Origin: Luteolibacter sp.
GTDB taxonomy: Bacteria > Verrucomicrobiota > Verrucomicrobiia > Verrucomicrobiales > Akkermansiaceae
Reading direction: 5' to 3'
DNA: 37,506 nucleotides
Assembly (NCBI GenBank): GCA_030828305.1
Contig: JAURCU010000015.1
Span: forward strand, 1 to 37,506
This document shows, piece by piece, positions 25,310 to 29,068 of this stretch. A program made the translations under genes and the position numbers. How positions within the stretch are numbered: the first letter of the stretch is position 1; each line of letters begins with the position of its first letter. The notes beneath the pieces were generated by a model. That model saw only the letters and a program-made list of their open reading frames with translations. It did not search any database and was not told where the DNA came from.

Positions 25310-26641
25310 ATGAAACATCGGATTGCCCTGCATTGGCAGATTCTTGCTGCCCTGATTCTGGCCACGCTCACTGCTCTGGTCCTGCGTTTGATGGTGGCCC
25401 CCAAGGCCACGGGCGTGGGATTGGAGCAGTTTGTAGCCGGCTCTTTGGGCTCCTGCAAATTTGTTGGCGATCTCTTCATGCGGGCTCTCAAGATGCTTAT
25501 TGTGCCGCTGATTGTCACTTCGGTGATCTCTGGCATCGCCAATTTGCAAGGGGTCAAAGGCTTCGCCCGCCTCGGTGGCAAGACCGCGCTCTTCTATGTC
25601 TCCAGCAGTGCCGCCGCCATTCTCATCGGCCTCATCCTGGTCAATCTGATCCAGCCCGGCCTCAAGGACGGACAGCCCAACGCCGTGATTGGCCAAGCGT
25701 TTTCCGAGAGCCGCGACAGGGCCAGTGAGAATGCATTGGCGAAGGTGGCACAGGCCGATGAGCAGGATAATGCGGCGATGTTCGAAGTCTTTCGCTCCAT
25801 GCTGCCCGAAAACGTCTTTTCCGCCGCCACCAACAACGGCCAGATGCTGGGCGTCATTGTCTTCAGCATTTTGTTTGCGGTGGCCTTGACCCGCATTCCC
25901 GGCGAGGAGATGCAGACCATGCGGCACTTCTTCCAGTCTGCCAATGATGCGATGATCATTCTAACTGGTTGGGTCATGGCCTTTGCCCCCATCGGCATCT
26001 ACGTGCTGATATTACCGGTGATTTATGAGACTGGCGTCGATCTCTTCGCCAGCCTCGGCAAGTATTTCTTCACAGTGCTCGCGGCACTGCTGATCCATTT
26101 GTTCGTGGTCTTGCCTCTTGCGCTTCGCTGGGTGGCCAAGATAAGCCCCGTCGAGCACTTCCGCAACATGCGACCGGCATTGATGCTGGCCTTTTCGACG
26201 GCGTCCTCATCTGGAACCTTACCGGTGACCATGCGTTGCATTGAAGATGGAGCCAAGGTCCCCAAAAGGGTCAGCAGCTTTACCCTGCCTCTGGGAGCAA
26301 CCGTGAATATGGATGGCACGGCACTCTACGAGTGTGTGGCAGTGATTTTTGTCGCGCAGGTAATGGGAGTTGAGCTGGGTTTTGTCAGCCAGCTCTTCAT
26401 TGTGGTGGCTGCCCTTCTGACCAGCATTGGCGTGGCCGGTGTTCCCTCCGCCAGTCTGGTTGCCATTCTACTGATTCTCAAAAGCTCGCAAATACCGGGT
26501 GCTGAAGCCGCGGCGCTCGCACTGCTCGCCGTCGACCGCCCCCTCGACATGTTGCGCACTTCGGTCAATGTCTTTAGCGATTCCTGTGCCGCGGTCGTGG
26601 TCGCCAAGTCCGAGCAGAAGCACACGCTCCCTCTGGATTGA
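25310..26641 (+). CDS. Dicarboxylate/amino acid:cation symporter (DAACS family)
   Basis: An inner-membrane symporter of the GltP/GltPh/DctA fold carrying glutamate, aspartate or C4-dicarboxylates with Na+ or H+. From ATG 25310 ([16 protein letters not shown]) it has 443 residues. Key motifs are in order: the Ser-rich hairpin tip [10 protein letters not shown] near residue 297, the Na+-binding [16 protein letters not shown] near 327, the second hairpin [16 protein letters not shown] near 382, and [22 protein letters not shown] near 410. In the last motif an Arg aligned to the acidic-substrate Arg of GltPh is not obvious, so the substrate is left open. The gene stands alone and converges with the exonuclease gene after 66 bp. 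Confidence 0.92.
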
Positions 26642-26707: not shown

Positions 26708-28393
26708 TCAATCCACAAGCGGCAGTTGCTCCTCGCTACGCTCACCCTCGGACCACGAGCTGCCATTGCCGGGCTTGAGGCCGTCTGCGCCCGCGGTTTT
26801 GGCAACCACGGCAATTTCGCCCAAGCTCTCGTGACTGCGCGCGGCATCGCGAATGGCTTTCGGGCTGACTTCGAAACAGGAGGCCACCGCTTCTTCGATC
26901 AGTGGGCGGTCAATCTCGCTGCCCAGTTTTCCGGTCAGAATACGCAGTAAGCTCTCGGATTCCGAAGGGTGCAGCGTGATGAGGCGCTCACTGAGTTTGA
27001 GCAGATGGTCGATGGAGGTCGATTGGCTGGCGAATTCCTCGATCAAGGTCTGGATTTTGGCAACGCTGACACCCTCGGGATGGAGGGGGAGCTCCTGCAA
27101 CAAAGTGGTGGCTGCAGTGATGTCGTCCTTGGTGCTTTGCAGCAGTTCGCGGTAACGCTCCTCGCGGCTTCCCGGAATGCTAAGCAAAAGATGGCGAAGC
27201 ATGCGATTGGGAATCAGGTTGGGTGACTTGCGGTTACCAATGGCGAGCCAGTCGGTGGTAATGCGCAAGTCGTCATCGGTATCCAGCGACTTGAAGTAAT
27301 TGGCGATGAACTCGATCTTGCTGGTGCGGCTGCCGGTTTGCTCCAACAGGCGGCAGAGATCCGTAAAGTCGGCGAAGGAGCAAAGCACGCGGTTGTGCCA
27401 GCCCGCGCGGGCTGCAGTGGCGGGTCTTTGGGCCGGTCGGTGAATCGGTAGCTCCAACTGATCGCCACCGGTAGCGCACCAGGCATCAAAACCCTTGGAC
27501 CGAAGTTCGGCCGCGAACTCCTTGGCAAAACCGTGGACCGTGAGAATGCGTTTGGGGCGCACCCTCTGGACGCATTCCATCAGGCCGGGGTGGTCGGCGT
27601 GATCCGAAAACGGCACCATGGCATCCACACCATAGCGAAAACGGGCATTAGGCTGCAGCGCCCAGCCGCTGAGCATGGCGGTGCGCTTGTTTGGGATCTC
27701 GCGGTAGAGTTTGGTCTTCATCGCGTGCGGTGGGGCGATGATCACGTGCCCATCATTGGTCTCGCCGGTGAATTCCACGGCTTCGGGGAGGTCTTTGACT
27801 CCTGCCTCGCGGCAAGCTTCAGTCATGCTTAGCGCTGCCGAGTGCAGAAGGGCGGAAATGTTGTTTTCGGCCAGCACGGCAAGGGCCTCTTGTGTTTTTC
27901 CCAGAGAGTAGGCCAGCAAGATCGGAGTCAGTCCGTCGGCTAGGGTATCGTGGACAAAGCCGAGTAGTTGGGCTTCAGCCTCCATGGGATTTGGGAAGCG
28001 GTAGAAGGGGAGGCCAAAAGTGGTTTCCATTACCAAGGTGTCGGCATTCAGGAAGTGAGCTTCCGGAGTGGTGCGCCCTTTTCGCATCTTGAAGTCTCCG
28101 GTGTAGAGGAGTGTGGCGTTGTCTTTGGTGCGGGTAACATGAAGCATGGCCGAACCAGGGATGTGGCCGGCGGGCAGCATGCGCAGGCGGAAACCATTGA
28201 TTTCGAGCGAGGTGTGGTAGTCCATCGCATCGATCCGGCTTTCGGCGAGGTTGAAGCGCTGGCGCAGCAGGGTGGCAGTGGTTTCCGTGCACAGCACGGA
28301 GTCATGCCGCGCAAAGTGATCGGCGTGTGCGTGGGAGACAAATGCCCGAGAGCGCGCTCCCTGTGGATCGAGCCAGAAATCGATCTCAGGCAA
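26708..28393 (-). CDS. MBL/beta-CASP-like exonuclease fused to a DNA-ligase DNA-binding domain
   Basis: A 561-residue two-part protein. Residues about 1-330 form a metallo-beta-lactamase nuclease of the ligase-associated exonuclease (SNM1/Pso2-like) type: HAHADH at 21-26, GHIPGSAM near 93, TGDF near 113, and VHGFAKEFA near 290. Residues about 345-535 resemble the N-terminal all-helical DNA-binding domain of ATP-dependent DNA ligases: FADFTDLCRLLEQT, the NLIPNRMLRHLLL block and LLRILTGKLGSEIDRPLIEEAV. The nucleotidyltransferase domain with its KxDG motif is absent; after AVVAKTAGADG a polar tail ends the protein. The only usual start is TTG 28393, yet in-frame codons before it encode LIEVRHQRGLYL, which fits the family N-terminus. 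A DNA-repair role is likely. Confidence 0.82.
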   Translation of the reverse strand: MPEIDFWLDPQGARSRAFVSHAHADHFARHDSVLCTETTATLLRQRFNLAESRIDAMDYHTSLEINGFRLRMLPAGHIPGSAMLHVTRTKDNATLLYTGDFKMRKGRTTPEAHFLNADTLVMETTFGLPFYRFPNPMEAEAQLLGFVHDTLADGLTPILLAYSLGKTQEALAVLAENNISALLHSAALSMTEACREAGVKDLPEAVEFTGETNDGHVIIAPPHAMKTKLYREIPNKRTAMLSGWALQPNARFRYGVDAMVPFSDHADHPGLMECVQRVRPKRILTVHGFAKEFAAELRSKGFDAWCATGGDQLELPIHRPAQRPATAARAGWHNRVLCSFADFTDLCRLLEQTGSRTSKIEFIANYFKSLDTDDDLRITTDWLAIGNRKSPNLIPNRMLRHLLLSIPGSREERYRELLQSTKDDITAATTLLQELPLHPEGVSVAKIQTLIEEFASQSTSIDHLLKLSERLITLHPSESESLLRILTGKLGSEIDRPLIEEAVASCFEVSPKAIRDAARSHESLGEIAVVAKTAGADGLKPGNGSSWSEGERSEEQLPLVD

Positions 28394-28512
28394 GTACAGA
28401 CCCCGTTGATGACGTACTTCGATCAGATGGAGTTCATCCTAGCGCGAATCCACAGGTCCCGAAACACAAAATACGGGCATGGGTCCACAATACGCGGGGT
28501 ATGGATGGGCTC

Positions 28513-28612: not shown

Positions 28613-29068
28613 TTAAAACGGGATGTCGTCCTCGTCTTCTTGGACCGCCGGGCCCGAGTTGGCTTCATGAGCGGAGGCGTTTGATGAGTGTTGGCTACCA
28701 CCACCTGAACTGCTGCCACCGCCTGGAGCACCTTTGCCGTCTGGGAGGAATTGGAGGTTTTCGCCGACCACCTTGAGCTTGCTGCGCTTTTTGCCGGTTT
28801 CCTTGTCATCCCAGGTGTCGAGTTGGAGACGGCCTTCGATGTAGACGCCGCGGCCCTTACCCAGGTATTTCTCGGCTAGTTCGGCCTGACGGCCCCAGAG
28901 AGTGACGTCAACAAAAGTGGTTTCTTCCTGCTTTTGGCCGGCTTCGTTGTTCCAAACGCGGTTGATGGCCAAGCCGACGTCAGCGACGGCAGTGCCTTTG
29001 GGGGTGTAGCGAAGTTCGGGATCTCGGGTGAGATTGCCGATGAGCATGACTTTGTTGAGGTTGGCCAT
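28613..29068 (-). CDS. ssb: Single-stranded DNA-binding protein
   Basis: SSB coats single-stranded DNA in replication and repair and recruits partners by its C-terminal tip. The 151-residue protein has the OB fold at residues 1-105 (MANLNKVMLIGNLTRDPELRYTPKG, TTFVDVTLWGRQAE, YIEGRLQLDTW), a Gly/Ser-rich linker, and an acidic tip ending DEDDIPF. It lies 85 bp after pth. The usual neighbours rpsF and rpsR are absent and the gap is too short to hold them. Confidence 0.97.
   Translation of the reverse strand: MANLNKVMLIGNLTRDPELRYTPKGTAVADVGLAINRVWNNEAGQKQEETTFVDVTLWGRQAELAEKYLGKGRGVYIEGRLQLDTWDDKETGKKRSKLKVVGENLQFLPDGKGAPGGGSSSGGGSQHSSNASAHEANSGPAVQEDEDDIPF

Follow-up and report, generated by a model that had tools for sequence, protein, structure and literature searches.

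The stretch of Luteolibacter sp. DNA that was analysed, 37,506 nucleotides long and referred to here as the window, is contig 64 of a draft genome (2.39 Mb in 181 contigs, 90.5% complete) labelled G000, the other G numbers being those of the genus genomes with which it was compared. On its minus strand, at 26708..28426, is a gene for a 572 aa protein in which an exonuclease is followed by the DNA-binding domain (DBD) of a ligase and by nothing further of a ligase; it is called here the exo-DBD protein. The minus-strand frame 28435-26708 has 575 open codons, with the stop at 26708-26710, and the 572 aa are counted from a probable CTG start at 28424-28426 (the next canonical in-frame start is TTG at 28391-28393). 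All other Luteolibacter members examined have GTG or TTG at the aligned position and CTG is present in G000 alone, where it is possibly a weakened start or else a base error. Directly upstream on the same strand, after a gap of 186 bp, is ssb (28613..29068, minus strand), and co-transcription of the two is possible, ssb and the nuclease gene being likewise arranged in G016, G091, G080 and G078. Downstream, a convergent transporter gene ends at 26641, 66 bp beyond the exo-DBD stop.

The protein ends in a disordered tail (26711..26779, minus strand) whose last residues are EEQLPLVD. Its QLPL (26717-26728) was considered as a clamp motif of the short forms and set aside, as it aligns with, and the tail matches, the LPF linker just ahead of ligase motif I in the full fusions described below, and as its Q is often E. 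The REP-like scrap which the sequence-only reading placed past the stop did not survive scrutiny: GTCCGAGGGTGAGCGTAGCGAGGAG is within the coding tail and single-copy in the 2.39-Mb genome, and a search for repeats around the stop found none.

The nuclease half, residues 1-320 (27467..28426, minus strand), is an MBL-fold exonuclease, beta-CASP-like and SNM1-related, on Pfam, TIGR04122 and structure matches. The Pfam matches are to Lactamase_B_2 at residues 29-137 and to RMMBL at 270-314. Against the TIGR04122 profile it scores 220.9 bits (E 1.9e-65, profile positions 5-316 of 326), below the curated cut-off of 325 bits and, judged on these matches, it is a diverged relative of the ligase-associated DNA damage response exonuclease that bears that number. 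The MBL metal ligands, HxHxDH (H32, H34, D36, H37), H88, D111, H276 and H298, are invariant in 28 sequences including that from G000. The AlphaFold model of the whole protein has a pLDDT of 87, and a structure search with it matched the nuclease fold to CPSF73/RNase J/SNM1-type structures with Z about 25-31. Since that whole-model search listed the nuclease fold only, the DBD was folded and searched separately.

That domain, residues 350-549 (26780..27379, minus strand), has 12 helices and was identified by Pfam, AlphaFold and structure search. Its DNA_ligase_A_N (PF04675) match, residues 350-514 with E 1.5e-10, extends over profile positions 1-173 of 174 and so is complete; it is all-helical in the AlphaFold model and, folded alone, has a pLDDT of 92. 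The isolated model matches the DBDs of Archaeoglobus, Thermococcus, Pyrococcus and human ligases, giving with 3gde a Z of 22.6 (rmsd 2.4, 201 residues aligned) and with 1x9n one of 16.3. The proposal that an MBL exonuclease is here joined to a complete ligase DBD with no catalytic domain, for which structure prediction of the DBD region had been suggested as a check, is upheld by Pfam, AlphaFold and the 3gde match. Within the domain the loop GKLGSEIDRP, residues 499-508 (26903..26932, minus strand), aligns to the conserved G-D-L-R-I-G DNA-contact loop and has lost the arginine. Intact fusions have GDLRIG there, G000 has GKLGSE, and G019 and G029 have GDPGRR; R-x-G is lost in these three and retained in G016, G085 and G036. 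The R-x-G loop of the fusions aligns with the same loop in archaeal ligases, and corresponds to the minor-groove loop of human LIG1.

What, then, of the ligase itself? Nothing follows DNA_ligase_A_N in the protein, both the adenylation domain with its KxDG and the OB domain being absent. As had been pointed out from the letters, no KxDG domain fits downstream with a convergent transporter 66 bp away; the window has no remnant of one, and no catalytic remnant was found downstream in G000, G016, G019, G029 or G036, nor in further short forms. A DBD-less ligase acting in trans from elsewhere was also considered and rejected, as a profile search for DNA_ligase_A_M (PF01068) found no match anywhere in the G000 draft, so that the ligase gene without a DBD which had been thought worth seeking elsewhere in this genome is absent from it, an absence that is not final as the draft is about 90% complete. 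Short stand-alone ATP ligases of 300-333 aa (L104 and L105, with DNA_ligase_A_M and a weak OB_2 match) are present in G019 and G036, both of which are short-form genomes.

Relatives in the genus, and in further families of its order, have proteins of ~900 aa in which this nuclease and DBD are followed by a whole ligase, KYDG and OB domain included; L. pohnpeiensis, which is in culture, has such a fusion. The suggested search of related genomes for a full-length fusion is thereby answered. The gene is present in 46 of 73 Luteolibacter genomes, 27 having no strong match to it, and 11 of the 46 have the ligase-less exo-DBD form, which besides G000 recurs in ten other independently assembled genomes. 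Four other genomes have broken ligases: motif I, KYDG, has become EFVG in G030, KYRG in G033 and ECRG in G075, each without an OB domain and at separate places on the tree, and in G022 the OB domain is lost. In G007, G070 and G073 only the nuclease is left. The arrangement named beforehand as refuting the proposal, a short form neighbouring a complete ligase gene that has a DBD too, was not seen.

Plant DNA ligase 6 carries an SNM1-like nuclease on the N-terminal side of a ligase from the same superfamily. By description it differs from the exo-DBD protein in keeping the catalytic ligase. Another point of comparison is Opitutus terrae, of the same phylum as Luteolibacter. It has a full RMMBL-LigB nuclease-ligase fusion (Ejaz & Shuman 2018, as cited in PMC10140301), and one is also present in Dry Valley metagenomes (DV-1-1-Nuc-Lig; PMC10140301), so that the sequence-only reading, which cited the plant enzyme, was too narrow in that such fusions are known in bacteria too. 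The ligase half of the published fusion is active; its nuclease half was insoluble and the activity of that half was reported as undetermined (PMC10140301). With these fusions the exo-DBD protein shares the order of nuclease and then DNA_ligase_A_N in a single chain, but it is without their adenylation and OB domains, and the same holds in comparison with the LigB-type ATP-dependent DNA ligase (TIGR04120), of which it has the PF04675 DBD but neither the KxDG adenylation domain nor OB. With the Lhr-MPE-Exo-LigB repair gene cluster (TIGR04120-04123) it has in common the TIGR04122-type exonuclease, and relatives have Lhr and MPE elsewhere in the genome; the differences are that G000 is without Lhr, MPE and ligase, and that its TIGR04122 score of 220.9 falls short of 325. 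The full fusion is already published; of the ligase-less exo-DBD form no report was found in the literature searched.

Is its shortness recent? A tree built from the nuclease portion places the exo-DBD protein of G000 in a nine-species clade (support 98/95) of six exo-DBD and three nuclease-only members, none of the nine having a ligase catalytic domain on the gene. A second group, G086, G036, G019 and G029, joins G075 at 97/100, and G072 is unplaced. Because G075, placed with the second clade, still has an adenylation domain, though a dead one, the two groups appear to have undergone their deletions separately, which argues for deletion of the ligase catalytic part in at least two lineages. 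A single origin of all 11 short forms is rejected (p 2.5e-9) when the short forms alone are tested, a set that omits the nuclease-only rows nested inside the clade; one clade that includes those rows and G075 is compatible with the data (p 0.44). The gene order prs-rplY-pth-ssb-exo is found in G000, G016, G091, G080 and G078, pth and ssb precede the gene in G073, and exo-rplM-rpsI is found in G007, G070 and G072 and, with an intervening transporter, in G000 and G078. This sharing of neighbourhood is in accord with vertical descent. On the tree and the clade's sequences, loss of the ligase part is judged to be old and common to the whole clade, rather than a fresh truncation. The idea of a full fusion cut short therefore holds as ancestry, in that ~900-aa fusions exist in the genus and order, but the cut is old and clade-wide and owes nothing to a repeat scrap.

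Has the shortened gene been maintained? With a branch codon model omega for the nuclease is 0.064 in the background, 0.082 in the window's clade and 0.089 in the second clade, and for the DBD it is 0.104, 0.200 (p 1e-5 against background) and 0.137 (p 0.055), respectively. Omega = 1 is rejected in each short-form clade, with 2dlnL of 238 for the DBD in the window's clade, and in the closest short-form pair, G019 and G029, where changes are unsaturated, dN/dS is 0.048/0.322 for the DBD and 0.025/0.273 for the nuclease. A DBD omega above background yet far below 1 implies a domain on which constraint has eased but persists. On the G000 branch, as on the other longest ones, synonymous sites are saturated, so that its own omega is uncertain. 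G000 is without the conserved loop arginine and the DBD changes at about double the rate seen in intact fusions, so that its binding to DNA may be weak, and the lack of a DBD in G007, G070 and G073, of the same clade, implies that it is dispensable.

Where the ligase is lost, its partners, an Lhr-type helicase and MPE, tend to be lost as well. In genomes at least 90% complete both are present in 14 of 17 with an intact ligase and in 2 of 16 that are ligase-dead or ligase-less (Fisher p 9e-5, uncorrected for kinship); in the 90.5% complete G000 draft neither Lhr, MPE nor an ATP ligase is above cut-off. The link is not absolute, as both partners accompany a short form in G072 and G078, and G059 and G082, single-contig genomes, have an intact full fusion and no Lhr or MPE over cut-off. 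The full fusion can evidently persist without them in the latter two.

At the C-terminus of the exonuclease, in a low-confidence linker, is QLELPI, residues 323-328 (27443..27460, minus strand), a candidate beta-clamp-binding motif which is predicted to be disordered (pLDDT <50 across the stretch). The peptide Q[LMI]x[LMFI] ends the nuclease in all 114 unique Verrucomicrobiota sequences, its frequency in background windows being 3.8%, and three proteobacterial members of the exonuclease family lack it; its commonest versions are QLELSI, QLELSL, QLELPI and QLELTL, and it is retained in ligase-less and nuclease-only forms. The beta-clamp consensus is Q-phi-x-[L/M]-x-[F/L] with Ile tolerated at the last position, and the most abundant phage-display clamp peptide cited is LQLELDF (PMC11139829). 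A clamp client would be expected to carry this sequence, or a pentapeptide version of it, in a flexible segment. QLELPI fits that consensus with I in last place, and for comparison the Pol IV of G080, G091 and G078 ends QLEFFD, QMEFFE and QLDFFG, respectively. The nuclease-end peptide, of which no earlier report was found in the literature searched, is a likely targeting peptide and a candidate clamp motif, by which the nuclease may be tethered.

Architecture, tree and constraint show that the gene derives from the fusion. With the same shortened form in ten related species, and still maintained, the exo-DBD protein, a derivative of a known repair fusion, is probably still at work rather than debris. 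The fuller reading, which we favour with some confidence, is of an old ligase-less derivative of the LigB-type nuclease-ligase fusion of Verrucomicrobiota, working as a nuclease which the clamp tethers and the DBD assists. The protein would act as a stand-alone DNA end-processing nuclease, held on the sliding clamp by QLELPI, and its ligase DBD would help to position the nuclease as an accessory module that docks onto duplex DNA or protein. The nick would be sealed by a housekeeping NAD ligase, assumed to be present, which is proposed because no ATP ligase was found in the G000 draft. The earlier suggestion that the domain now serves the nuclease as a DNA clamp is compatible with a DBD that is folded and constrained, but G000 has lost the R-x-G DNA-contact loop.

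The main rival is slow decay, i.e., that the ligase pathway has been lost and the gene is disappearing altogether from a small 2.39-Mb genome, with a weakened start, a degraded DBD and a fast branch. The CTG start peculiar to G000 and the length of its branch, 0.38 against a median of 0.09, lend this weight, as do the lost loop arginine, the absence of Lhr and MPE from G000, the 27 genomes of the genus without a strong match and a decay series that the nuclease-only and absent states could form. However, the 572-codon frame is open with all metal ligands retained, the G000 DBD is still modelled as folded (pLDDT 92), and the clade's omegas of 0.08 for the nuclease and 0.20 for the DBD both reject 1, so that decay seems unlikely, though as omega is clade-wide a recent onset in G000 alone stays compatible. 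Ligase DBDs also bind PCNA and Artemis. Might the retained DBD then serve as a scaffold for protein contacts, whether with SSB, the clamp or some other partner, the nuclease alone touching DNA? R-x-G is lost in G000, G019 and G029 while fold and omega <1 persist, the gene adjoins ssb in most of the clade, and a complex of the human LIG4 DBD with an Artemis peptide (PDB 4htp) likewise has a ligase DBD working with an MBL nuclease, although in human they are separate proteins while here they are fused with no catalytic ligase. Against this, R-x-G is kept in G016, G085 and G036, where DNA contact may persist in that part of the group, and no partner is identified; a pure scaffold strikes us as rather improbable. 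That the true gene is a full-length fusion broken in a 181-contig draft is scarcely credible, and for the architecture is refuted, given ten other independently assembled genomes with it and an intact convergent transporter 66 bp downstream with no catalytic remnant nearby.

A wider and more speculative extension, possible but held tentatively, is that the ligase DBD has repeatedly become detached from catalysis and been exapted to give processivity or targeting to a DNA nuclease tethered to the sliding clamp, several Luteolibacter lineages thereby having a ligase-free nuclease. Full fusion, dead ligase, ligase deleted and nuclease only are a natural series, which points to the nuclease as the longest-kept part of the poorly understood four-enzyme Lhr-MPE-Exo-Lig pathway, and in it a ligase DBD survives under selection without its ligase. 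The candidate clamp-binding peptide at the nuclease end suggests a testable means of targeting. Two further arrangements were met in the genus. In G009 (L091, 6578-9204) there is, besides a fused copy, a second copy of the system as a stand-alone nuclease (348 aa) overlapping a stand-alone ligase (569 aa). In G016 (L108, 8424-10736) the exo-DBD frame runs stop-free into a RuvX/YqgF Holliday junction resolvase domain (PF03652, 2.2e-37) to give 771 aa, which is either a fusion or a case of internal start at an in-frame ATG ahead of the PF03652 domain.
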